Assembly: GCA_947259235.1 (NCBI GenBank)
Contig: CAMYLL010000031.1
Span: 1-14,080, forward strand
DNA from: an uncultured Pseudodesulfovibrio sp.
GTDB lineage: Bacteria; Desulfobacterota; Desulfovibrionia; Desulfovibrionales; Desulfovibrionaceae
DNA length: 14,080 nucleotides
Reading direction: 5' to 3'
Shown here: piece after piece, positions 471 to 14,080 of the stretch
How the letters are laid out: each line of letters opens with the position of its first letter
Numbering within the stretch: the stretch's first letter is position 1
Position numbers and translations under genes: made by a program
Notes under the pieces: generated by a model
Told to the model about the DNA's origin: nothing
The model's input: only the letters and a program-made list of their open reading frames with translations
Database searches by the model: none

Positions 471-1625
471 CTACTGCGGCCCATCCCGGCCCGCGACTTT
501 CAGGTCGATCCAGAAGGTCGTGCCGCCCGCCTCGGTGGACTCGAACCCGACCCGACCGCCGAGGTGGTCCTCGCCCAGGAGCTTGATGGAATAGGTCCCG
601 AGCCCGCGGCCGGGCCCCTTGGTGGAAAACGACCGCTTGAAGAGCTGAAGCTGCACGGACTCCGCCATGCACTGGGGATTGTGGACGCTGAGGCGGATCG
701 TGCCGCCGTCCACCGTGGCAGCCGCTGTGACCGTGTCTCCGGCAGCAGACGCCTCCAGCGCGTTCTTCACCATGTTCACGAGCACCCGCCGCAGCAGGGC
801 GTGGTCCGCCTTGACATGGCCGTTCTTCGAGGCCGGGTCCACCACCAGACGCCTTCCCTTGGCCAGGGGAAGCGACAAGTATTCCTCCACCACCGTCTCC
901 AGGACTTCCAGCGCCTGAAGCGTGATCCGGGACACGACGTACTCGCCGCGCTCCACCTGCTGGAGGGTCCGCTGCGACTGTATCTGATCCACGAGCCGGG
1001 ACAATGCCGTGCCCACAAGGTCGAGGGACTCGCTCAGCTCCTGCGGGCATTCGTCGTGCAGGGTGCTGACCAGGCTGTAGGCGCTCCCAGCCGAGTTCAG
1101 AAGGTCGTGATAGAAGACACGCTCCATCACCTCCCGCTCCTTCTCCGCCGAGATATCCATCATGGTGACCACGCAGAACCTGTCCTCGCCATGCTGCCAG
1201 GGCGCGGCGTGTACCCGCAGGTCCAGGGCGCCGGTGTGGCCGTCCACGTTCTGCAGGATCTGGCAATCCCGGACACAGGGTTTGCCTGTGGCCATGGTTT
1301 CCAGCACGGCCAGAACGGCCCCGCACTCGCGGCAGTTGACAGACGTGCCGCACCCCCCCGGTTCGGTGGAGGCATGGACGCAGCCCACGATCTCGCCGGG
1401 CCGCTTGCCGAGGAAGGAGTGTCCGTCGCCGCTGCGCGTGAGTTCCTGGAACGGCTTGTTGGCAAAAACGATCTGCCGGGCAGGGTTGAGCACCGCGAGC
1501 GGCAGCGGGAAAAAGTCGAAATACTGGGAGCAGGCGTAGCCATCCACATGCTGGAACTCCCGCTCCACTTCTTCCGCGCTCTCGCGCCGGGCCGGGGCAA
1601 AATGCGTATGGTCGTCACGCTTCAT
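471..1625 (-). CDS. soluble PAS-domain sensor histidine kinase with Cys cluster
   Basis: This is a 384-residue kinase with no signal peptide or membrane segment. A PAS domain (about residues 30-160) leads into a short dimerisation helix with the phospho-acceptor His (HDLLN, H173) and a HATPase domain: N box VNMVKNALEA (N288) and G2 box GRGLGTYSIK (from 339). The usual DxGxG box is replaced by HNP (about 315-317), followed by an FKRSFSTKG F box; I recall this combination in a subfamily of such kinases. The PAS domain has an unusual Cys set: C82, C92, C98, C101 (CREC), C117, C121 and C151, suggesting a metal, haem, Fe-S or thiol-redox input (inference). I chose ATG at 1625 because AAAGG (1637-1641) is well placed for it; a TTG at 1631 is too close. 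It starts 7 nt after the large kinase gene, so the two are probably translationally coupled. No response regulator is adjacent. Confidence 0.88.
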   Translation of the reverse strand: MKRDDHTHFAPARRESAEEVEREFQHVDGYACSQYFDFFPLPLAVLNPARQIVFANKPFQELTRSGDGHSFLGKRPGEIVGCVHASTEPGGCGTSVNCRECGAVLAVLETMATGKPCVRDCQILQNVDGHTGALDLRVHAAPWQHGEDRFCVVTMMDISAEKEREVMERVFYHDLLNSAGSAYSLVSTLHDECPQELSESLDLVGTALSRLVDQIQSQRTLQQVERGEYVVSRITLQALEVLETVVEEYLSLPLAKGRRLVVDPASKNGHVKADHALLRRVLVNMVKNALEASAAGDTVTAAATVDGGTIRLSVHNPQCMAESVQLQLFKRSFSTKGPGRGLGTYSIKLLGEDHLGGRVGFESTEAGGTTFWIDLKVAGRDGPQ

Positions 1626-1632
1626 CTTCAAT

Positions 1633-4600
1633 TCAACCTTTCGAATATGTTAGCCGTTCTGGCCTCAGCAGTTGCTCGATCGAACGCAGCAGGGCATCCC
1701 TCTCCACGGGTTTGGGCAGATAGGCGTCCATGCCCGCCTCAAGCATCGTCTCCTCGTCGCCGCGCATGGCATAGGCCGTCAGGGCGAGAATTGGCACGGC
1801 CGACACATTCACGCCCGATTCGCCCTTGCGAATAGCCCCGGTGGCGCTGATGCCGTCCATCAAAGGCATCTGGATGTCCATCAGCACCAGGTCAAACGCA
1901 TCCTTGCGCAACGCTTCGAGAGCCGCCCTTCCATTCTCAACCGTGTGAACCTCATACCCGACCCGTTCAAGGATCTTCCGGATGGCGAACCGGTTGACCT
2001 CGTCGTCCTCGGCCACGAGGATGCGCCCCGATCCGGTCGGCGAAACGGCTGGTTCGGACCAGCTTTCCCCCACCCCGGCAGCGTCACGGGGCACCCGCAA
2101 CGGCAGTTCCAGCATAAATCGCGTGCCGCCCCCGGCCCGGTTCTCGGCGCCGATGGTCCCGCCCATCATGTCCACGAGTTGTCTGCAGATGGACAGCCCA
2201 AGGCCCGCCCCCTCGAACTTCCTCGTATACCCGGCGCTCGCCTGGGCAAAAGGCTCAAAGATGATGTCCAGCTTCTCCGGCGGGATGCCTATGCCCGTAT
2301 CCTCCACGGTGATCAGGACCCGCACCTCGTTTGGATCGGTCCCGGAGCAGGCGGATGCGACGGACGCACGCACCCCCACCTGACCTGCGGCAGTATATTT
2401 AATGGCATTGCCCACGACGTTGCCCAGAATCTGATGCATCCTGGTGGGATCAAAGAGCAGCAAGGGCGGCACATCGTCGTCCACAGCGAGGGAAAGAGGC
2501 ACTCCCTTGCACCCGGCGCTCCCCCGGAACACATCACGCACCTGATTGAAAACATCACGCAGCGAGCAGGGCATCGGTTCGATGGCCAGCTTGCCCGCCT
2601 CAATCGTGGAGTGGTCGAGAATGTCGCACAGCAAACGGGTCAGCCGCCGGGACGACTGCGTGGCGGCCTCCATCAACTCCCGCTGCTCGCCATCGAGTAA
2701 CGTCCCCTCAAGGAGCTGGAGCATGCCCATGATCCCGTTCAGCGGCGTGCGCACCTCGTGGCTCATGTTCGCCAGAAAGTCGGACTTGACCTTGCTGGCC
2801 GCCTCGGCCGCCAGCTTCGCCTCCATGAGCGCGCCTTCAAACTGCTTCTGCTCGGTGATGTCGGAAAAAATGGTGACGAACTGGCCCGGCGCGTTCCTGA
2901 ATGCCGTGACCAGATAATGCCTGCCAAAGGCGGCCGAGTAGCTGTCGAAACGGTCGGGACGGCCGGTGGTGACGATCCGGCCATAGCGCTGTATCCAGAC
3001 ATCCTCTGTTTCTGGCAGGATATCGAGCACGGTCTGGCCGATGACCTCAGCCGCCGTGAGCCCGGTCATCTTCTCAAAGGCCGGGTTAACGGCCAGGAAA
3101 CGATAGTTCTCTGGATTCCCTGCGGAATCGAAGAGGATCTCATGCAGGGCGAACCCCTCAAGCATCTGCTGAAAGAGGTTCTGGTAGCTGTGCAGGAGCT
3201 GCTGCTTTTCCGCCTCGTCCTTCCTGCGCTGGGAAATGTCGCGGGCGATGCTCAACTCGTAGATGACCCCTTCGCTGTTGAAAGCCCGACAGGACACCTC
3301 CACCGGGAACACCTCGCCGCCTCTGGTCGCATGCTCGCTCTCGAACAGGCTCCATCCTTTTGTCAGCAGCTCGTCGGCGACCCTGGCATAGACCGCGAGG
3401 TCCCGCTCCGTGTCGACGTCCCGGGGCGACATGCGCAAAAGCTCCTCGCGGGAATATCCGAGCCGCGAGCAGGCCACGTCGTTGACCTCGGTGAAGCAGC
3501 GCTCCTTGCCCGGGCGCAGGGGGGAGACAAAGAGGGCGTCGGTACCGCTGTTGAAGAGCAGCCTGTAGCGCTTCTCGCTTTCCTGCAACGCCCTCTCGGC
3601 ACGGGCGAAATCCGTGATGTCCTCGAAAATTGAGAGCAGGCGGGGGGTCTCGTCGATGGTCACTATCTCGCCGCTGTAGATCGCGTCGACCCGGACACCG
3701 CCCTTGGCCGTGGCCCGGAGCCGGATCGGTCCCGCCCGGCCGCTGTCCCTGATGTCCGACAGGAGTGCCTGCCGCTGTTCCAGGGTCAGCCAGCCAAGCT
3801 CGACGGAGGTCCGGCCGATGAGCTCGTCCCGGCTGAACCCGGAGACCTTGAGAAACTTGTCGTTGACGTCTATGAACCGGCCGTCGTCGATCTCCACCAG
3901 GGAGATCATGGTCGGCGCCGTGCGGAATATCGTCTCGAAACGCGTGTCGCTCGCGGCGGCCGACTGCTCGGCGCGCTTGCGATCGGAGATGTCGCGCGAC
4001 GCCCCCACGAGGTAAAGCTCGCCGTCCTCCGGGGCCTCAACCAGGGAACCGGTACACTCGACCCATACCTCCGAGCCGTCCTTACGCCGGAGCAGCATCT
4101 CCAGAGTGGCCGAGGCCATCCTGCCAGCGGCGAAATCGTCGAACACTTCCCGCACGAGGCCGCGATGGTCCGGGGCCACCAAATCCTCCCAGGAAGTATG
4201 CAGCAGCTCGGCCGCCGTGTAGCCGAGCACTTTTTCCACCGACGGGGAAAGATACACGAACCGCTGGTCACGATTCAGGGCCCATATGACGTCCGACATG
4301 GTGCCCGTGATGAGCTGGTACATATGCTCGCTACGCCGAAGGCGCTCGGCGGCCCGCTTCCTTGCGGTCACGTCCTCCACAAAACCACAGAGATACCTCT
4401 CGTCCCCCGGGCAATCACTGAAGGATGAAAAGGTCAGGATCGCATCAACGACTGAGCCGTCCCGGCACTTGTAGCGGTTCTCGAACGACTTCCAGTGCAC
4501 CCCGTCGTTCACGATCTCCTCGACGAACTGGGGCCGCCGGGCGGAATCCTCATACAGCGCGTCCTGAATGGACGTCGCGTTCGCCACGGCCATCAGGTCC

Positions 4601-5130
4601 TCCGGATCGTCATACTTGAGCATCCGGGCGATGGCGTTGTTCACATAGAGGAACTTGCCGTCCAGGGTGGACTCGAACATGCCGATGGGCACGTTGTCGA
4701 ACATGTCCCTGATGCGGTTGATATTGGCGTCGAGGGCCCTGGCGGCATATTCCCTGTCGGAGATGTCGGTGAAGAAATTCAGGGTGGCGGGCCTGCCCTG
4801 CCACTTGATGGCCACGCCGGAGACATGGAGATACACCGTGCGGCCGTCCTTTGACAGGGCGCGAAATTCGTAATGGGCGGGAACCTGCCCCCCATCGGTC
4901 CGGGCGCGGTGAAAGGCCATGACCCGCTCCCGGTCGTCGGGATGCACGAACTCCCCTATATCGTCCGCAAGCAGCTGCGCCTCGGAATAACCGGACAGTC
5001 GCGCAAGGGACGGGTTGCAGAAGCGCAGCCGCCCTTCCTGAATGATGGCGATGCCCTCCTGCGCGCTCTCCACGATCAGCCGATAGGTCTCGATGTTCGT
5101 GCCGAGCCCGAACTCGCCGCTCTCGCCCAT
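1633..5130 (-). CDS. multi-PAS hybrid sensor histidine kinase with receiver
   Basis: This 1165-residue cytosolic hybrid kinase has six consecutive PAS/PAC units (roughly 10-130, 133-262, 265-390, 393-510, 515-640, 642-765). Several end in the PAC-type DIS/DIT motif (FTDISDRE, SRDISDRK, FEDITD, ARDISQR, FSDITEQ). Then come HisKA with SHEVRTPLNG (H791), HATPase_c with N box NVVGNAIKYT (N908), G1 EDTGIGIP (D944) and G2 GAGLGLSI, and a C-terminal receiver (ILVAEDDEVN, phospho-acceptor D1085 in LMDIQMPLMDG, K in YLPKPV). All residues for autophosphorylation and internal phosphotransfer are present. An Hpt protein elsewhere would be the expected next step. It has no transmembrane segment, so it reads an internal cue through PAS ligands; which one cannot be told. 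The start at 5130 has a very strong Shine-Dalgarno; an upstream in-frame ATG at 5181 lacks one. Its 3' end is 7 nt from the next kinase gene. Confidence 0.93.
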   Translation of the reverse strand: MGESGEFGLGTNIETYRLIVESAQEGIAIIQEGRLRFCNPSLARLSGYSEAQLLADDIGEFVHPDDRERVMAFHRARTDGGQVPAHYEFRALSKDGRTVYLHVSGVAIKWQGRPATLNFFTDISDREYAARALDANINRIRDMFDNVPIGMFESTLDGKFLYVNNAIARMLKYDDPEDLMAVANATSIQDALYEDSARRPQFVEEIVNDGVHWKSFENRYKCRDGSVVDAILTFSSFSDCPGDERYLCGFVEDVTARKRAAERLRRSEHMYQLITGTMSDVIWALNRDQRFVYLSPSVEKVLGYTAAELLHTSWEDLVAPDHRGLVREVFDDFAAGRMASATLEMLLRRKDGSEVWVECTGSLVEAPEDGELYLVGASRDISDRKRAEQSAAASDTRFETIFRTAPTMISLVEIDDGRFIDVNDKFLKVSGFSRDELIGRTSVELGWLTLEQRQALLSDIRDSGRAGPIRLRATAKGGVRVDAIYSGEIVTIDETPRLLSIFEDITDFARAERALQESEKRYRLLFNSGTDALFVSPLRPGKERCFTEVNDVACSRLGYSREELLRMSPRDVDTERDLAVYARVADELLTKGWSLFESEHATRGGEVFPVEVSCRAFNSEGVIYELSIARDISQRRKDEAEKQQLLHSYQNLFQQMLEGFALHEILFDSAGNPENYRFLAVNPAFEKMTGLTAAEVIGQTVLDILPETEDVWIQRYGRIVTTGRPDRFDSYSAAFGRHYLVTAFRNAPGQFVTIFSDITEQKQFEGALMEAKLAAEAASKVKSDFLANMSHEVRTPLNGIMGMLQLLEGTLLDGEQRELMEAATQSSRRLTRLLCDILDHSTIEAGKLAIEPMPCSLRDVFNQVRDVFRGSAGCKGVPLSLAVDDDVPPLLLFDPTRMHQILGNVVGNAIKYTAAGQVGVRASVASACSGTDPNEVRVLITVEDTGIGIPPEKLDIIFEPFAQASAGYTRKFEGAGLGLSICRQLVDMMGGTIGAENRAGGGTRFMLELPLRVPRDAAGVGESWSEPAVSPTGSGRILVAEDDEVNRFAIRKILERVGYEVHTVENGRAALEALRKDAFDLVLMDIQMPLMDGISATGAIRKGESGVNVSAVPILALTAYAMRGDEETMLEAGMDAYLPKPVERDALLRSIEQLLRPERLTYSKG

Positions 5131-5133
5131 TCT

Positions 5134-5142
5134 CCCTCCCCC
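5134..5142 (-). promoter_or_regulatory. ribosome binding site deciding the hybrid kinase start
   Basis: The minus strand reads GGGGGAGGG here, a few bases before ATG at 5130. It supports that start (protein beginning MGESGEFGLG) over the in-frame ATGs further upstream at 5181 and 5169. Confidence 0.75.
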
Positions 5143-5176
5143 TTCTGGCGGAAATCGCCGTTTACCCATACTGATC

Positions 5177-5205
5177 AACATACAACAGAACGCACCTTAC
5201 TCCAA
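5177..5205 (-). promoter_or_regulatory. candidate sigma70 promoter for the two-kinase operon
   Basis: On the minus strand, TTGGAG (5200-5205) and TATGTT (5177-5182) are separated by 17 nt. The -10 matches 4 of 6 and the -35 matches 3 of 6. Transcription would begin near 5170, downstream of the alternative ATG at 5181, which agrees with translation starting at 5130. It follows directly after the terminator of the cheW unit. Confidence 0.3.
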
Positions 5206-5216
5206 TCATTTATGGG

Positions 5217-5260
5217 AAAAAATAAGGCAGGGCCCGCCCCATCCCCGGGAAGACCCTGCC
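5217..5260 (-). terminator. rho-independent terminator after cheW
   Basis: On the minus strand, GGCAGGG (5254-5260) pairs with CCCTGCC (5226-5232). A second inner pairing of CCCG (5233-5236) with CGGG (5246-5249) is possible. The stem is followed by TTATTTTTT. It lies 17 nt beyond the cheW stop codon and separates the chemotaxis unit from the kinase operon. Confidence 0.85.
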
Positions 5261-5277
5261 GTGGTGTCGTGCTGTCG

Positions 5278-5781
5278 TCAGGCCGCGATTTCCGCAGATT
5301 CCTCCGGCACCGCCAGTATCTCCTCTCCGCCGAAGATGGCGTCGACATCGACGATGATGATGAACTGGTCGCCCTGCCTGCCCATGCCCATGATGTAGTC
5401 GGTCCGCACCGCTGTTCCCATCTTGGGGGCGGGTTCGATGGTCCCTTCGGGCATCTCCACCACCTCCCGCACCGAGTCGACCAGCGCGCCCAGCACCAGC
5501 TGCGAGCCGCCAAGCTCAACCTCGAGAATGATGATGCAGGTGTCCACCGTGTCCTCCACCCGGCTCATGTCCAGCTTCTGGCGCATGTCCACCACGGGCA
5601 CGGCATGGCCGCGCAGGTTGATCACCCCGCGCATGTAGTCCGGCGTTCTCGGGATATAAGAAACCGTGGTGATTTCATGGACCTCCCTCACCCTGGCGAT
5701 ATCCAGAGCGAATATCTCCTTGCCGAGGGTGAAGGTCAGGAACTGCCCGAGGGACGGCTTGTTGATTGAAACGGTTGTCAT
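5278..5781 (-). CDS. cheW: CheW-like chemotaxis coupling protein
   Basis: This 167-residue protein is a single CheW domain. It contains LGQFLTFTLGKEIFALDI at the N terminus, the RGVINLRGHAVPVVDMR core, and VDSVREVVEMPEGTIEPAP. CheW bridges methyl-accepting receptors to the kinase CheA in cytosolic arrays. The start is the ATG at 5781 because GGGGGAGG (5785-5792) lies 3 nt ahead; an open frame extends further upstream but overlaps the MCP and has no ribosome site. It begins 10 nt after the MCP stop, and its ribosome site overlaps the final base of that stop codon, so the two genes were co-transcribed. No CheA is in the window. Because the MCP 5' end and its promoter are missing, how cheW is now transcribed is unclear. 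Confidence 0.93.
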   Translation of the reverse strand: MTTVSINKPSLGQFLTFTLGKEIFALDIARVREVHEITTVSYIPRTPDYMRGVINLRGHAVPVVDMRQKLDMSRVEDTVDTCIIILEVELGGSQLVLGALVDSVREVVEMPEGTIEPAPKMGTAVRTDYIMGMGRQGDQFIIIVDVDAIFGGEEILAVPEESAEIAA

Positions 5782-5791
5782 ATGCCTCCCC

Positions 5792-6601
5792 CTAGAATCT
5801 TTCGAAGTCGTGTTCATCGGCAGCGGCCAGGGCCTGAACCGGCAGGCTCCTGGGCGCGGCTTCCGCCTTCTTGGCCGCCAGGGCCCGGGGCGCGGTGCGA
5901 ACCACGCGGCGGGTCGAGCCGTCATGCGCGGAGGTCGACAACCCGTCGACGCGGAAGAACGACATGGTCTGCTGCAGCTGCTGTCCTTGACCGGCCAGCT
6001 CCTCGCTGGTGGCCGCCATCTCCTCGGAGGCCGAGGCGTTCTGCTGGATGACGGTGTCGAGCTGGGCTATGGCCTGGTTGATCTGGATGGCCCCCTGGTT
6101 CTGCTCGTTGCTGGCCGCGGCGATCTCCTGAACCAGCGCCGCGGTCTTGTCTATGCTCGGCACAAGGGCGTCGAGCATCTCGCCCGCCTGCTTGGCCACC
6201 TGCACTGTGCGGCCCGAGAGCTCGCTGATCTCGTTGGCGGCCTCGCCGCTGCGCTCGGCCAGCTTGCGCACCTCGGCGGCCACCACGGCGAACCCCTTGC
6301 CGTGCTCGCCCGCCCGGGCCGCCTCGATGGCCGCGTTGAGGGCCAGCAGGTTGGTCTGGCGGGCGATCTCCTCGATGATGGATATCTTTTCCGCAATGTT
6401 GGTCATGGCGCCAACGGCCTCGGCCACAGCCGCGCCGCTCTTCTTGGCATCCGCGGCAGAGGCGTTGGCTATGGATTCGGTCTCATGCGCGTTGCTCGAA
6501 TTCTGCTGGATGTTGGAGGTCATCTGCTCCATGGACGACGAGACTTCCTCGATGGCCGCGGCCTGCTCCGTGGCGCCCTGGGAAAGGCTCTCGGACGAGG
6601 C
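5792..6601 (-). pseudogene. methyl-accepting chemotaxis protein, C-terminal signalling domain only
   Basis: The frame gives 269 residues of a receptor cytoplasmic domain. It includes a methylation-helix segment ([20 protein letters not shown]), the hairpin tip [22 protein letters not shown], then [16 protein letters not shown], the returning helix, and a C-terminal tail ending DFERF, which resembles the pentapeptide that docks CheR/CheB. The sensor domain, membrane segments and HAMP expected in a roughly 500-700-residue receptor are missing. Homology stops at about 6598-6601 and an in-frame stop follows at 6605-6607. The first ATG within the fragment (6532) has no convincing ribosome site. 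It is therefore called a 5'-truncated remnant; if expressed, it could only be a soluble signalling domain. The break coincides exactly with the start of the outer-membrane channel fragment on the other strand. Confidence 0.85.
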
Positions 6602-6605
6602 CCTC
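6591..6605. other. breakpoint joining MCP and outer-membrane channel fragments
   Basis: To the left of this interval the minus strand encodes MCP; to the right the plus strand encodes the C-terminal part of a TolC-family channel. Bases 6591-6601 can be read as either gene (MCP residues SSA/ES on the minus strand; SDEA on the plus strand), so a few bases of microhomology are possible. Both genes lose their 5' ends here. A simple deletion between divergent genes would produce this, and so would an assembly mis-join. Confidence 0.75.
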
Positions 6606-6881
6606 TACAAGTATCGGGACGCCGGGAGAAAGATCAATCTCTACAAGGACACCCTGGTCCCCAAGGCCGAGCAGTCGCTGGGCGTGACCATGGAGGGGTT
6701 CATGACGGGATCAGGCACCTCCCTCGACCTCATCGACGCCGAGCAGACGCTCCTTGAGCTGCAACTGGCCTATTACCGCGCCCTCACGGACCAGGCCCTC
6801 CGGCTGGCCGAAATCGAAACCCTGGTCGGCCGCGAGCTCCCCTGCGAGTTCCACGGCTCGCTCCTGAAGCAAGACAAATAG
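6591..6881 (+). pseudogene. TolC/CusC-family outer-membrane efflux channel, C-terminal fragment
   Basis: About 95 codons remain. The segment [20 protein letters not shown] followed by PKAEQSLGVT, GSGTSLDLIDAEQTLLELQL and a last helix ending in LAEIETLVGREL is typical of the final coiled-coil hairpin of outer-membrane factors of RND pumps. A full protein would have roughly 400-500 residues including a signal peptide, so about four-fifths is missing. The frame stays open leftward across the junction through antisense MCP sequence to an ATG at 6147, but that part is not protein-like. The fragment ends 84 nt before cusB, the normal position of a cusC-type gene in a cusCBA operon. It cannot form a channel; the pump would need another outer-membrane factor. 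Confidence 0.82.
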
Positions 6882-6965
6882 GCACGCCGCGCCTGAAACC
6901 TCCCCCCGCCACCTGCGATGAACTCCGATGGTCGGGGCGGTTTTGAAAAGCAGACAAGGGACATC

Positions 6966-9098
6966 ATGAGCAGATTCAAAAATTCCAGGCTGATCATCGC
7001 CATCGCCGTGGTCAGCCTCGCCGCCTTCACGGCAGGATACCTGGTCAAGAGCACCGGCAATCCGGCCGCGACCGCGATTTCACCGGCGGAGACAACGGAA
7101 GAGCACGACCTCGAAGCCCATCTCGACGAAAAGGGCTCCGTCACCTGGACCTGTTCCATGCATCCCCAGATTCAGCTGCCGGAGCCGGGCAACTGCCCCA
7201 TCTGCTTCATGGAGCTGATCCCGCTGCAGCGCAAGGACGAGGGCGAGCGGACCAGCATCCGGGAGATCACCCTGACCGAGGGAGCCCGCAAGCTCGCAGG
7301 CATCAACGTGGAGAAGGTCAAGCGCCTCGACGTCGCGGTCGAGACGCGCATGGCGGGCAAGGTCGATTACGACGAAACCCGGGTCAGGACCATCACGGCC
7401 TGGGCGGGCGGGCGCGTCGACACGATGTACGTGGACTACACGGGCAGCCTGGTCAGGAAGGGCCAGGCCATGGTTTCCATATACAGCCCGGAACTGCTGA
7501 CGGCCCAGGCCGAGCTGATCCAGGCCATCAAGGCCGTGGGCGACCTCAAGAACAGCAACCTCGACCTGGTCAGGAACAGCGCGGTCCGCACCGAAGAGGC
7601 GGCGCGCGAGAAACTGCGCCTCCTGGGCCTGACCAGGGCGCAGATAGACCGAGTGGCCCGGGAAGGCAAAGCCGCGGAGCACATCACCCTGTACGCCCCC
7701 CAGGGCGGCGTTGTCACGAGCAAGGACGTCAACGAAGGCCAATACGTCAAGACGGGCAGCAGCATCTACTCCATCGCCGACCTGACGACACTGTGGGTCA
7801 TCCTCGAGGCCTATGAATCCGACCTCCCCTGGGTGGACCTCGGCCAGCAGGTGGAGTTCCAGACCGAGGCGTATCCCGGCAAGACGTTCACGGGCACGGT
7901 CGTCTACATCGATCCCATCGTGAACGAGAAAACCAGGACGGTGCGGGTTCGACTGTCCGTTCCCAACAAGGACGGCAGCCTCAAGCCCGGCATGCTCGTG
8001 CGCTCGACCCAGCGGCACGGCGGAAAGGACCGGGCCGCCGCCGACTCACCGCTTGTCATCCCGGCGTCCGCCCCGCTGATCACCGGCAAACGGGCCGTGG
8101 TCTACGTGGCGAACCCGGACAAAGAGGGAACCTACGAGGGACGTGAAGTCGTACTCGGCGCCAAGGCAGGCAATTACTACATCGTCAGGAACGGTCTCAA
8201 GGAAGGCGAGATGGTTGTCACCAAAGGCAACTTCAAGATCGACAGCGCCCTCCAGATCGTGGCCAGGCCGAGCATGATGAACCCCAGCGCCGCACCGGCT
8301 CCGACAACCGGGGAACTGCCCCGGCTCTTCGCGTCCAAGCTCCGCCTCCTTGGCGACTTGTTTGAAAAACTTGCGGACGACGTGCAGACGCAGGACCTCA
8401 AGCGCACCCACCTCGCCTTCGGGGAATTCAACAAGGAGCTTCGCCTCATCGACGGCTCGGAGCTGGACAGCGCGGCGTTCCTGAAGTGGAAGGAATACTC
8501 CATGCTCCTGAGCAACGACGCCATTCTCGGGGCAGAGGCCCGGGATGCCGGGCGGCTCGGAGAGATTTTCACGGAGATGAAGGCCCACTACGCGGGGCTG
8601 AGGGCGGCCTTCCCCCTTGAGGAGGCCGGAGCGCGACACGACGCGCCTGAAATCTTCCAGCGGCAGCTCGCCGTGGCCTTTGCCAGCTATGAATCCCTGG
8701 GCGACGCGCTGGCGGTGGACGATGCCGACGCGGCGACCAAGGCGGCGGCCAACCTGGCGGGCGCGCTCCAGCTGGTGAACGCGGCCTCCCTCGACGGGCC
8801 GTCGCACAACGTCTGGACCTCGGCGCTGGCCGCGATGACGGACGGCCTGACCGCCATCCGCGAGGCCGGGGACATCGTCGGCATCCGCACCGGATTCTAC
8901 CCGGTCTCCACCGGCATGGCCGAGGCTGTTCTCAAGCTCGGCATCACGACCGACGGACCGCTTTTCGAGATATTCTGCCCCATGGCCTTTGATTACGAGG
9001 GGGCCGTGTGGCTCCAGCGGGACGAGGACGTGCGCAACCCCTACTTCGGCGCGGCCATGTCGACCTGCGGCGAAACCAACCGGCAGCTCAAGCGATAG
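6966..9098 (+). CDS. cusB: CusB-type RND adaptor with heavy-metal-binding and DUF3347-like domains
   Basis: This 710-residue protein is the periplasmic membrane-fusion subunit of a metal efflux pump. It has an N-terminal membrane anchor or signal (about 8-26). A short heavy-metal-binding domain follows, with C63-S-M65-H66-P and C77-P-I-C80-F-M82. The adaptor core (about 95-440) contains lipoyl-like GGRVDTMYVDYTGSLVRKG, an alpha-hairpin, and beta-barrel segments such as LWVILEAYESDLPWVDLG. After a Pro/Ala-rich linker (about 439-452) there is a C-terminal extension of about 250 residues. Its end (CPMAFDYEGAVW, NPYFGAAMSTCGE; C671, M673, C701) matches DUF3347 as I know it. ATG at 6966 is preferred over 6918 because AAGGGA lies just upstream and the anchor then starts normally. 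It is 13 nt from cusA. The metal is probably Cu(I)/Ag(I), argued mainly from CusA. E. coli CusB (about 400 residues) lacks both extra domains. Confidence 0.9.
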   Translation: MSRFKNSRLIIAIAVVSLAAFTAGYLVKSTGNPAATAISPAETTEEHDLEAHLDEKGSVTWTCSMHPQIQLPEPGNCPICFMELIPLQRKDEGERTSIREITLTEGARKLAGINVEKVKRLDVAVETRMAGKVDYDETRVRTITAWAGGRVDTMYVDYTGSLVRKGQAMVSIYSPELLTAQAELIQAIKAVGDLKNSNLDLVRNSAVRTEEAAREKLRLLGLTRAQIDRVAREGKAAEHITLYAPQGGVVTSKDVNEGQYVKTGSSIYSIADLTTLWVILEAYESDLPWVDLGQQVEFQTEAYPGKTFTGTVVYIDPIVNEKTRTVRVRLSVPNKDGSLKPGMLVRSTQRHGGKDRAAADSPLVIPASAPLITGKRAVVYVANPDKEGTYEGREVVLGAKAGNYYIVRNGLKEGEMVVTKGNFKIDSALQIVARPSMMNPSAAPAPTTGELPRLFASKLRLLGDLFEKLADDVQTQDLKRTHLAFGEFNKELRLIDGSELDSAAFLKWKEYSMLLSNDAILGAEARDAGRLGEIFTEMKAHYAGLRAAFPLEEAGARHDAPEIFQRQLAVAFASYESLGDALAVDDADAATKAAANLAGALQLVNAASLDGPSHNVWTSALAAMTDGLTAIREAGDIVGIRTGFYPVSTGMAEAVLKLGITTDGPLFEIFCPMAFDYEGAVWLQRDEDVRNPYFGAAMSTCGETNRQLKR

Positions 9099-9111: not shown

Positions 9112-12100
9112 ATGGGAAACGAACCCGAAACACGCATGGAAGCCAGGAGCCTCACCGACAAGGTCATCCGCTTCTGCCTTGAGCAGAAACTGATCGTCTT
9201 CCTCTTCGTGGCCGTGGTCATGGGCTGGGGCATGGTTGTCGCGCCCTTTGACTGGAAGATCGACGGGCTGCCCCGCGACCCCGTGCCCGTGGACGCCATC
9301 CCGGACATCGGCGAGAACCAGCAGATCGTCTTCACCCAGTGGATGGGCCGCTCGCCCCAGGACATCGAGGACCAGGTCACCTACCCGCTCACCGTCTCCC
9401 TGCTCGGCATTCCCGGCGTCAAGACGGTTCGCAGCTACTCCATGTTCGGCTTCTCGACCATCTACGTCATTTTCAACGAGGACATCGAGTTCTACTGGTC
9501 GCGCTCGCGCCTGCTGGAGAAGCTCAACAGCCTCCCGCCCGGCACACTGCCGCAGGATGTCAAGCCCACCCTCGGCCCCGACGCCACGGCGCTGGGGCAG
9601 GTCTTCTGGTACACGCTGGAGGGCAGGGACGAACACGGCAATCCCACGGGGGGCTGGGACCTCGACGAGCTGCGCAGCGTTCAGGACTGGTACGTCCGCT
9701 ACGCCCTGCTCGGGGCGGAGGGCGTCAGCGAAACAGCATCCGTCGGCGGATTCGTCAAGGAATACCAGATCGACGTGGACCCGGACGCCCTGCGCGCGGC
9801 AGGTGTCACCCTGGAGGACGTCTTCTCGGCGGTGAGGATGTCCAACCTCGACGTGGGCGCCCGGACCATCGAGATCAATAGCGTCGAGTACCTGATCCGT
9901 GGCATCGGCTTCGTCAAGGAGCTTGGGGACATAGAGAAATCCGTCATCAAGGTGGCCAACAACGTCCCCATCCGCGTTCAGGATGTGGCCACGGTCACCC
10001 TTGGTCCCGCGCTGCGGCGAGGCGTGCTGGACAAGGGGGGGGCCGAGGCCGTGGGAGGCGTCGTCGTCGTGCGTTACGGCGAAAACCCGCTCCAGGTCAT
10101 CAAGAACGTCAAGGCCAAGATTGCCGAGATCTCTCCGGGGCTGCCGTCCAAGACCCTGCCCGACGGAACGGTCAGCAAGGTGACCGTGGTCCCCTTCTAC
10201 GACCGCTCCGGCCTGATCAACGAGACGCTGGGCACGCTGAACACGGCCCTGACCGAGGAAGTCCTGATCACCATCATCGTGGTGCTCATTGCCGTCATGC
10301 ACCTGCCCAGCTCGCTGCTCATCTCATCCCTGCTGCCCATCGCCGTCATGATGGTCTTCATCGGCATGCGCCTGTTTAATGTCGACGCAAACATCGTGGC
10401 CCTGTCAGGCATCGCCATCGCCATCGGAACCATGGTCGACATGGGCATCATCATCTGCGAGAACATCCTCAAGAAATTCGAGCACGCCGCCCTTGACGAG
10501 AGCCGGATGAAGGTCATCTTCGACGGCGCGTCGGAGGTCGGCAGCGCGATCATGACGGCGGTGGCCACGACCATCGTCAGCTTCCTGCCGGTCTTTGCCA
10601 TGGTCGGCCCGGAGGGCAAGCTCTTCAAGCCGCTGGCCTACACCAAGAGCTTTGCGCTCATCGCCTCGATTATCGTGGCCCTGACAGTGCTCCCGGCCAT
10701 CGCCCATCTCATATATAGACGCAAAGAGTCCACCGCCCGGAAACGGCTGCCCAGTCATCTGGTGGACATGCTGTACATCGCGGCGGGCGTGGTCGTGATC
10801 CTCTTCGTGAAGTGGTGGGTCGGCCTGTTCCTCGTCGGCCTCGGCCTGCACCGCATCTTCGGCCATCTGCTCCCGCCGCGCATCGAAGGCCTGTTCAGCG
10901 GGGCCGAGAACTTCGGCGTCATCCTGCTTGTTGTCATATTCCTCTCCACCCACTGGCTGCCCCTGGGGCCGGAAAAGGGCGACCTGAGAAACGTCGTCTT
11001 CGTCTCGACGCTGATCGGCGGCCTGATGCTCTTCTTCCATCTGTTCCGGCGCGGCTATGCCACGATGCTGCGCTGGGTGCTTGATCACAAGGCCGCCTTC
11101 CTCTGCCTGCCCGCAGCCGTCATCCTTTGCGGCGCCCTGGTCTGGCTCGGCGGCGGCGCGCTGACTTCATGGCTGCCCGACGCGGCTCGCGCGTCCCGTC
11201 CCGTGGCCGGGCTGGTCCACCTGTTCCCCGGCCTGGGCAAGGAATTCATGCCGCCGCTTGATGAAGGCTCGTTCCTCTACATGCCCACCACCATGCCGCA
11301 CGCCTCCATCGGAGAAGTGCATGATGTCCTCTCCAAACAGGACATGGCCATCCTGAACATCCCGGAAGTGGACGACGCGGTGGGCAAGCTCGGCCGTGCG
11401 GAGACCCCGCTCGACCCCGCGCCCGTGTCCATGATCGAGACCGTGATCAACTACAAGCCCGAGTACCTCGTCGATGAAAACGGCACGCGCCTGCGCTATC
11501 TGTACGACGAGGACCAGAAGGACTACTTCCGCTCGGCGGATGGCAAGCCGCTGCCCGCCGAAGACGGATTCCCCTACCTCGTACAGGGGTTCTACCCCCG
11601 CGACGAAAAAGGGGCGCTTATCCCCGATCCCGATGGCAAGCCATTCAGGCAATGGCGTCCCCGCCTCGACCCGGACCTGAACCCCGGACGGACGGCGTGG
11701 CAGGGGATTCGGAGCCCGGACGACATATGGGACGAGATCGCCAGGGCCGCGGAGATGCCGGGCACAACATCGGCCCCCAAGCTCCAACCCATTGCCGCGC
11801 GCATCGTCATGCTCCAATCCGGCATGCGCGCTCCCATGGGCATCAAGGTCAAGGGACCGGACCTTCCGACCATCGAGGAGTTCGGCCTGCGGCTGGAGCA
11901 ACTGCTCAAGGAAGTCCCGTCCATCCAGCCCGCCGCCGTCATCGCCGACCGCATCGTGGGCAAGCCCTATCTCGAAATCGTCATCAACCGCGACGCCATC
12001 GCCCGGTACGGCATCACGCTCAGGAAGGTACAGGACGTCATCGAGGTGGCCGTGGGCGGCAAGGTCGTGTCCTCCACGGTCGAGGGGCGCGAACGCTACC

Positions 12101-13047
12101 CCATGCGGGTGCGCTACATGCGCGAGCTGCGGGACAGCATCGAGGAACTGGGCAACATCCTCGTGGCCGCACCGTCGGGCGAGCAGATTCCCCTGCAACA
12201 ACTCGCCGACATGCGCTATGTCAGGGGGCCGCAGGTCATCAAAAGCGAGGACACGTTCCTGGTCGGCTACGTGCTGTTTGACAAGAAACCCGGCCACGCC
12301 GAGGTCGACGTGGTCGAGAGCACCCGCGAGTATATCGACAGCAAGATCGCCTCCGGCGAACTGACCGTGCCCAACGGCGTGTCATACGAATTTGCGGGCA
12401 ACTATGAAAACCAGATCAGGGCGCAGAAGAAGCTGGCTGTCATCCTGCCGCTCGCGCTCATGGTCATCGTGGTCATCCTGTACCTGCAGTTCAAGTCCAT
12501 GGCCACGACGCTCATGGTCTTTTCCGGCATCATCGTGGCCTGGTCCGGCGGCTTCATGATGATCTGGCTCTACGGGCAGGACTGGTTTCTCAACTTCAGC
12601 GTCTTTGGCACGCACATGCGCGACCTCTTCCAGGTTCATCCCATCAACCTGAGCGTCGCCATCTGGGTCGGCTTCCTCGCCCTGTTCGGCATCGCCTCGG
12701 ACGACGGCGTGATCATGGCGACCTATCTGGACGAAAGCAGGGACAGCCGCGACACGAACAGCATCCGATCCATCCGCGAAGCCATCCTCACGGGGGCCCA
12801 GCGCAGGATACGGCCAGCCCTCATGACCTCGGCAACCACGATCCTGGCCCTGATTCCGATCCTGACCTCCACAGGACGCGGGGCCGACATCATGGTCCCC
12901 ATGGCCATCCCCTCGTTCGGCGGCATGACCATCGCCATCCTGACGGTCTTCGTGGTCCCGACGCTGTATTGCCTGGCAGAAGAAACAAAATTCAAAGTGA
13001 ACGAAAAACGCCGACAGCCGACCGACACCGAGTCGGAGCCGTCATAA
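9112..13047 (+). CDS. cusA: CusA-type Cu(I)/Ag(I) RND efflux pump, enlarged
   Basis: This inner-membrane proton/metal antiporter has 1311 residues, against about 1045 for E. coli CusA. The ATG at 9112 has AAGGGA 3-8 nt ahead. TM1 is at about 27-44. The TM4 motif GIAIAIGTMVDMGII carries D443, matching the proton-relay Asp (D405) of E. coli CusA. Three methionines sit where I recall the E. coli copper ligands M573, M623 and M672: M724 (FLYMPTT), M774 (PVSMIETVI) and M900 (VMLQSGMR). The first two are 50 residues apart in both proteins. This argues for copper or silver rather than zinc or cobalt. Two insertions explain the size: hydrophobic segments at about 554-645, after TM6, and a charged periplasmic stretch of about 77 residues between M774 and M900. 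The TM10 region reads GIASDDGVIMATYL, with D1197 where E. coli has E939. Co-transcribed with cusB. Confidence 0.93.
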   Translation: MGNEPETRMEARSLTDKVIRFCLEQKLIVFLFVAVVMGWGMVVAPFDWKIDGLPRDPVPVDAIPDIGENQQIVFTQWMGRSPQDIEDQVTYPLTVSLLGIPGVKTVRSYSMFGFSTIYVIFNEDIEFYWSRSRLLEKLNSLPPGTLPQDVKPTLGPDATALGQVFWYTLEGRDEHGNPTGGWDLDELRSVQDWYVRYALLGAEGVSETASVGGFVKEYQIDVDPDALRAAGVTLEDVFSAVRMSNLDVGARTIEINSVEYLIRGIGFVKELGDIEKSVIKVANNVPIRVQDVATVTLGPALRRGVLDKGGAEAVGGVVVVRYGENPLQVIKNVKAKIAEISPGLPSKTLPDGTVSKVTVVPFYDRSGLINETLGTLNTALTEEVLITIIVVLIAVMHLPSSLLISSLLPIAVMMVFIGMRLFNVDANIVALSGIAIAIGTMVDMGIIICENILKKFEHAALDESRMKVIFDGASEVGSAIMTAVATTIVSFLPVFAMVGPEGKLFKPLAYTKSFALIASIIVALTVLPAIAHLIYRRKESTARKRLPSHLVDMLYIAAGVVVILFVKWWVGLFLVGLGLHRIFGHLLPPRIEGLFSGAENFGVILLVVIFLSTHWLPLGPEKGDLRNVVFVSTLIGGLMLFFHLFRRGYATMLRWVLDHKAAFLCLPAAVILCGALVWLGGGALTSWLPDAARASRPVAGLVHLFPGLGKEFMPPLDEGSFLYMPTTMPHASIGEVHDVLSKQDMAILNIPEVDDAVGKLGRAETPLDPAPVSMIETVINYKPEYLVDENGTRLRYLYDEDQKDYFRSADGKPLPAEDGFPYLVQGFYPRDEKGALIPDPDGKPFRQWRPRLDPDLNPGRTAWQGIRSPDDIWDEIARAAEMPGTTSAPKLQPIAARIVMLQSGMRAPMGIKVKGPDLPTIEEFGLRLEQLLKEVPSIQPAAVIADRIVGKPYLEIVINRDAIARYGITLRKVQDVIEVAVGGKVVSSTVEGRERYPMRVRYMRELRDSIEELGNILVAAPSGEQIPLQQLADMRYVRGPQVIKSEDTFLVGYVLFDKKPGHAEVDVVESTREYIDSKIASGELTVPNGVSYEFAGNYENQIRAQKKLAVILPLALMVIVVILYLQFKSMATTLMVFSGIIVAWSGGFMMIWLYGQDWFLNFSVFGTHMRDLFQVHPINLSVAIWVGFLALFGIASDDGVIMATYLDESRDSRDTNSIRSIREAILTGAQRRIRPALMTSATTILALIPILTSTGRGADIMVPMAIPSFGGMTIAILTVFVVPTLYCLAEETKFKVNEKRRQPTDTESEPS

Positions 13048-13727: not shown

Positions 13728-13771
13728 TGGAGCTGGAGGGAATCGAACCCACTACCTCTTGAATGCCATGC
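13728..13771 (-). other. 3' fragment of tRNA-Ala(GGC): probable att site
   Basis: Read on the minus strand, this starts with the anticodon loop ATGGCAT (anticodon GGC, with T before and A after), continues with the 3' anticodon stem TCAAG, variable loop AGGT, T loop GGGTTCGATTCCC and 3' acceptor strand ending CTCCA. The 5' half of the tRNA (acceptor, D arm, 5' anticodon stem) is absent; what precedes the loop (CGTGC) does not pair with TCAAG. The encoded end is ACA, not CCA. The T stem GTGGG/CCCTC has one T-T mismatch. It is therefore not a working tRNA. Homology running from the anticodon loop to the 3' end is the classic footprint of a tyrosine-integrase element inserted in a tRNA gene. An intact tRNA-Ala would be expected at the element's other end. 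Confidence 0.78.
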
Positions 13772-13863
13772 ACGAGGACGGGCGTGTAAGGATAGAAATG
13801 CTTTGATTTTTTATTTTGAAGTCAACAAGAAATCAGTGATGTTGGAGGCGTGTTGAATGCGTT

Positions 13864-13894: not shown

Positions 13895-14080
13895 TTACAA
13901 CTGGCGTTCCACATCCATGCTCTGATGCAGGATTCTGACGATAGTCACTGTCTCGTCTTCAACACGATAGAAGACCAGATGCTTGCCCACAGGGTGGCTG
14001 AAATACCCTTCTCTGATATGGTCACAATTTCTGCCGATACCGACATTCTCTGAGATCAAATAAAAAGACTGATCAAGACG
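13895..14080 (-). CDS. RelE/ParE-family toxin, C-terminal part (runs off right edge)
   Basis: The last 61 codons and the stop (TAA, complement of 13895-13897) are visible; the start lies beyond the window. The sequence contains GIGRNCDHIREGYFSHPVG, then KHLVFYRVEDETVTIVRIL and ends HQSMDVERQL, which is the characteristic C-terminal half of ParE-type toxins (about 95-100 residues when complete). ParE toxins poison DNA gyrase and RelE relatives cleave mRNA; which applies here cannot be told. The antitoxin normally lies just upstream, so it should be outside the window to the right. GC content is lower than in the efflux and signalling genes, and the gene sits beside a tRNA-Ala scar, in keeping with a mobile element carrying a stability module. 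Confidence 0.82.
   Translation of the reverse strand, partial: RLDQSFYLISENVGIGRNCDHIREGYFSHPVGKHLVFYRVEDETVTIVRILHQSMDVERQL

Follow-up and report, generated by a model that had tools for sequence, protein, structure and literature searches.

Two gene remnants meet at a single point

In a Pseudodesulfovibrio contig, two unrelated genes of opposite orientation, one for a chemoreceptor (MCP, minus strand) and one for a CusC-type outer-membrane channel (plus strand), lack their 5′ ends at the same place, which raises the question of whether a rearrangement truncated both genes or whether the two sequences were brought together during library preparation or assembly. The window, meaning the whole stretch of DNA analysed (14,080 bp), is the entire contig C31 of an assembly of 2,928,646 bp (2.93 Mb) in 474 contigs with an estimated completeness of 82.78%, figures that point to a metagenome-derived origin. 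The last-numbered contig, C474, has 2,016 bp, contigs below ~2 kb having apparently been dropped. Among named relatives, the three nearest to the channel tail all belong to Pseudodesulfovibrio. The window contains the following features:

471-1631, minus strand: second histidine-kinase-like gene (HATPase_c)
1633-5181, minus strand: multi-PAS histidine kinase with receiver domain
5278-5781, minus strand: cheW, downstream of MCP as in seven relatives' loci
5792-6604, minus strand: 3′ part of MCP gene, cytoplasmic signalling part only, 270 codons and stop
6147-6881, plus strand: mechanical 244-aa ORF over the join (MCP antisense, then CusC tail), not considered a gene
6599-6602, no strand: join, GGC(C) compatible with both genes (3-4 nt)
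6600-6881, plus strand: 3′ part of CusC/TolC-type outer-membrane channel gene, last ~93 codons and stop
6605-6607, minus strand: TAG closing the MCP frame just past the join
6966-9098, plus strand: cusB-type periplasmic adaptor, intact (HMBD, HlyD_D23, DUF3347)
9112-13047, plus strand: cusA/czcA-type RND pump, 1311 aa, intact

In column-by-column alignments, MCP relatives match the window up to 6601 or 6602 and diverge past there, and CusC relatives match it from 6599 or 6600 onward, the stretch common to both homologies being GGC or GGCC. At the DNA level, MCP-side matches (77-82% identity over 630-653 bp, nine relatives) and cus-side matches (76-83% over 267-282 bp, five relatives) end within a few bases of each other, so the join is not a chance effect, and the presence of two joined gene halves in the sequence is confirmed. 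The preliminary description, in which both genes lose their 5′ ends at one point and the minus-strand MCP homology runs gapless to about 6601 before a stop at 6605-6607, agrees with these alignments, the TAG being built from cusC letters. It also had the channel homology start at about 6591 and comprise the last ~95 codons; the length holds (93-95 codons found) but the start moves to 6599-6600, since a Leu codon precedes the Ala-Leu/His-Tyr run in 12 of 12 relatives, whereas the window has GAG.

The join falls within the conserved cytoplasmic part of the MCP, ~45 residues ahead of the Pfam MCPsignal match, in a segment still matched by the genome's own paralogues. Short repeats occur close by: 6588-6605 reappears at 6783-6800 inside the CusC tail (2 mismatches in 18), and 6639-6647 repeats 6603-6611. 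In neither case is MCP sequence matched to the cusC sequence of the join, and both probably reflect chance or coding similarity.

The MCP and CusC remnants and their neighbours

The MCP frame runs for 270 codons without a stop, from 6604 down to the stop at 5792-5794, and contains the signalling domain PF00015 (1e-33). Of what a functional MCP carries upstream of this domain, the membrane/sensor part, HAMP and an own start codon are all absent; the match to the MCP of locus L057 starts at residue 406 of 661, corresponding to a loss of ~405 residues (membrane, sensor, HAMP). The MCPs of five same-genus relatives aligned in full are whole (661-703 aa), whereas the window holds only the last 270 residues, and the one relative scanned, L057, shows HAMP and a below-cut-off 4HB sensor match that the remnant lacks. 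Over its first 190 residues, the remnant is 74-89% identical to the MCPs of seven fetched same-genus MCP-CheW loci (L045, L046, L053-L057), whose downstream cheW is 59-74% identical to that of the window. At least 16 MCP frames are present in the assembly. The 15 of these besides the remnant, found with a hairpin motif in 20 contigs, span 589-823 aa, ten being whole within their contig, five reaching a contig end and none being cut inside a contig.

The channel remnant (6594-6878, plus strand) matches positions 111-187 of 187 of PF02321 (E 1.9e-5, 25.0 bits against a cut-off of 22) and is 88-90% identical to residues 348/350-442 of same-genus CusC, the value for Pseudodesulfovibrio sp. OB3 (L102) being 90%. 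The match to L102 starts at residue 348-350 of 442, leaving ~349 residues missing. While the 442-aa L102 protein shows two stretches of the OEP repeat (PF02321), the remnant covers part of one OEP model only, and the channel is identified as CusC by its operon context, the cusC-cusB-cusA order being common to the window and to CusCBA/CzcCBA heavy-metal RND efflux systems. A survey of 36 same-genus genomes, the window's own included (E <= 1e-10), gave CusC matches in 15, 12 of which (own included) hold the same subfamily at 69-100% identity to the query. In the 11 other genomes there are 12 CusC copies, and all of them align with 417 or more of the 442 query residues; relatives' CusC is whole, and that of the window, reduced to its tail, is the sole short one.

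The pump scores 773.2 bits with TIGR00914 (curated cut-off 701.45) and so belongs to the CusA/CzcA heavy-metal RND family; as the assignment goes just to this family, copper is a presumed substrate. The adaptor reaches 138.1 bits with the NCBIfam CusB model NF007303, below the cut-off of 390, and 133.1 bits with the general adaptor model TIGR01730, above its cut-off of 94.9, and is therefore called only CusB-type. It combines a heavy-metal binding domain (HMBD) with a C-terminal DUF3347 domain. The pump exceeds the 1051-position family model by ~260 residues, which is characteristic of the group, since the CusA proteins of five relatives (80-87% identical to that of the window) also have 1305-1311 aa. 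Some 85 bp separate the cusC stop from the cusB start in the window; in L047, L048 and L102 a small gene of 87-103 aa, absent from the window, lies between cusC and cusB (L102:6283-6546, without a Pfam match). A literature search on cusA, copper and Pseudodesulfovibrio returned nothing relevant.

Gene order in relatives and the missing 5′ halves

Gene order was explored by tblastn (E 1e-6) around 12 CusC loci, ten with an upstream flank of 6-11 kb and two (L049, L163) that end within 0.7 kb and are not assessable. An MCP adjoins CusC in none of the 12 (two not assessable), the only MCP-query match in the flanks being one of 36% identity ~9 kb off (L161), and a SpoIIE-HAMP gene lies upstream of cusC in seven, directly divergent in six of those. 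None of the seven fetched MCP-CheW loci has a CusC or CusB match nearby, and four of them have a divergent XRE-receiver gene upstream of the MCP. The MCP and cusC loci being separate in relatives, the simple deletion between divergent MCP and cusCBA neighbours put forward in the preliminary description finds no support in those examined. In G012, the locus with the fullest common order (L057, MCP-CheW-kinase-kinase) is ~562 kb away from cusC and oriented alike, so a deletion there could not yield the divergent join of the window; the orthologue is uncertain, as the closest MCP by DNA is another (C4:1307888, ~1.3 Mb from cusC). In G014 the two loci lie ~340 kb apart with their 5′ ends facing, an arrangement compatible with a deletion, albeit one that large.

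Within the assembly, a full-length CusC protein query (L017) matched the window alone at E up to 10, revealing neither an orphan 5′ half nor any other copy of the channel, in line with the pump without its channel of the preliminary description; two other OEP-family genes are present, on C256 and C268. An MCP query (L057) detected no orphan N-terminal half, with limited sensitivity because these halves differ much between relatives, and a DNA query made from the XRE-receiver gene and the MCP 5′ region in L046 yielded six short matches, none of them a missing half; the one on C374 we take, from its frames rather than a family search, to lie among other genes resembling an ATP synthase region. 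The N-terminal 244 residues of the XRE-receiver gene had no match in the assembly, and neither did SpoIIE-HAMP have a close one (34% identity over the full length, 48% over the C-terminal part and 36% over a short part, against 52-63% in relatives). Since the assembly is 82.8% complete and contigs below ~2 kb were apparently dropped, the absence of the 5′ halves is suggestive only and weak as evidence.

Tetranucleotide distances to the genome profile are 0.141 and 0.147 for the two halves of the window, compared with a mean of 0.143 (sd 0.032) for 38 six-kb chunks from 14 of 16 sampled contigs (the other two being too short). Foreign DNA on one side was rejected on this ground, an origin in another same-genus species being still compatible with the values. 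A search of the assembly with window positions 5000-8500 found no part of them in a near-identical second copy; the remaining 19 matches listed reach 87% identity at most.

To estimate how often genes are cut inside contigs, 61 contigs of this assembly, the window among them (850,538 bases in all, nine contigs taken only to 20 kb), were compared with 504 G012 proteins no shorter than 200 aa, predicted from 800 kb and from loci L047 and L057. Top matches of at least 60% identity gave 82 pairs: 66 full, nine cut at a contig end and seven interior candidates. One of these seven was an MCP paralogue match and one the cusC of the window; the other five were set aside on visual inspection, the start being wrong or the frame a spurious antisense one, and for two of them this rested on the G012 protein having an internal start. 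When the two target stretches are left out, none of 78 pairs (19 contigs, 89,100 aligned bases) was accepted as interior-cut, which is a weak bound.

Origin of the join

The observation is real in the sequence. It most probably reflects a chimera of assembly or library preparation and, failing that, an ordinary double pseudogene; an assembly error or an ordinary rearrangement by chance is a likelier source of the join than anything novel. The weights given below to a chimera and to a real rearrangement are judgements, not computed values. As the best single explanation, and a reasonably probable one, the join at 6599-6602 would have been made during library preparation or assembly, putting end to end in a 14-kb contig the blocks kinase-kinase-cheW-MCP and cusC-cusB-cusA, which would lie apart in the chromosome; reads would then not support it. 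Two blocks, an exact join, their separation in relatives and a fragmented assembly are the observed basis. Short-read assemblies tend to fail at repeats such as MCP genes, and the location of the join in a conserved MCP segment, in a genome with at least 16 MCP frames, suggests a chimera, as do the relatives examined, in which the loci are apart and both genes are whole (12/12 CusC; 5/5 MCPs aligned in full). Neither truncated frame contains a stop or frameshift, over 270 codons in the MCP and 93 in cusC, so no sign of decay is seen, which also speaks for a chimera. The mis-assembly that the preliminary description held to be the main alternative is kept and favoured, though not by the route it invoked, the collapse of repeated MCP genes: the 3-4 nt in common are far below k-mer length, the 15 other MCP frames are long and 5000-8500 has no second near-identical copy, so a repeat-mediated mis-join was rejected as direct cause. 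On the mock-community Illumina figures given in PMC11261854, inter-genome chimeric contigs per genome numbered 2.63 for SPAdes and 22.15 for megahit, those of SPAdes rising at lower coverage, and in a second benchmark, PMC7881036, species of low to intermediate coverage were likelier to yield chimeric contigs. The window resembles the chimeric short-read metagenome contigs as portrayed there in its abrupt interior join of natural blocks and its fragmented, incomplete assembly, and differs in having no long common repeat at the join (PMC11261854, PMC7881036). A search for literature on amplification chimeras with microhomology found none. Against a chimera, the two sides have only 3-4 nt in common, and the 5′ halves and the genes often upstream of them were not found, though they would be expected on other contigs unless in the missing part; both sides carry this genome's composition, no other MCP frame of the 15 is cut inside a contig, and the absence of interior-cut genes among the 78 pairs counts weakly in the same direction.

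A real rearrangement through the 3-4 nt microhomology has a lesser, though still appreciable, probability. By its simplest route, the cus block would first have come to lie near the MCP operon, and a later deletion would have taken the two 5′ ends along with all DNA between them; MCP and CusC would be dead, and CusBA would be without its own promoter region and channel. Such microhomology is typical of illegitimate joining, it is present here, and it is too short for a k-mer repeat error; the uniform composition, the absence of other accepted interior-cut genes and the facing 5′ ends in G014, despite the distance, are also in line with a real join, and the lack of both 5′ halves together with the XRE-receiver gene and a close SpoIIE-HAMP match is what one deletion would predict, with the reservation on completeness made above. 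On the contrary, the two loci are neighbours in no relative examined, those of G012 point the same way, neither remnant has decayed, and an inversion or translocation should leave reciprocal halves, of which none was found. That a Pseudodesulfovibrio species underwent a one-step natural microhomology-mediated deletion, silencing a chemoreceptor and leaving a heavy-metal CusBA pump to borrow another outer-membrane channel, seems rather unlikely. Retention of the remnants as functional genes, either as a soluble MCP signalling domain working with CheW or as a protein from the 244-aa ORF, is very improbable: the MCP frame is open and has an internal ATG at 6532, but this ATG belongs to the ordinary MCP coding sequence, the plus-strand ORF is in its upstream half the antisense of conserved MCP sequence, long mechanical ORFs abound throughout the GC-rich window, and no sigma-70-like promoter site was found in 5200-7100, a weak test.

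Were the join real, it would amount to an ordinary double pseudogene, in which an MCP devoid of membrane, sensor and HAMP parts should not signal, and cusBA would have lost the region where a promoter would lie. CusBA would need another channel, which the OEP-family genes on C256 and C268 could supply, making the locus a small natural test of whether a CusBA pump works with a foreign channel. If the join is instead an artefact, it is a warning that a gene loss claimed from one contig of a fragmented assembly has to be backed by reads.

At the far end of the window, a T-arm-like sequence at 13730-13775 (minus strand) looks by eye like the end (3′) of a tRNA gene and may be what remains of an integration site; ARAGORN found no whole tRNA there, and no tRNA or Rfam family was detected in the window. 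Beyond it, at 13895-14080 (minus strand), in a region with GC down to 0.44, the contig end interrupts a ParE-type toxin gene (PF05016, 5.3e-12), leaving its C-terminal part.
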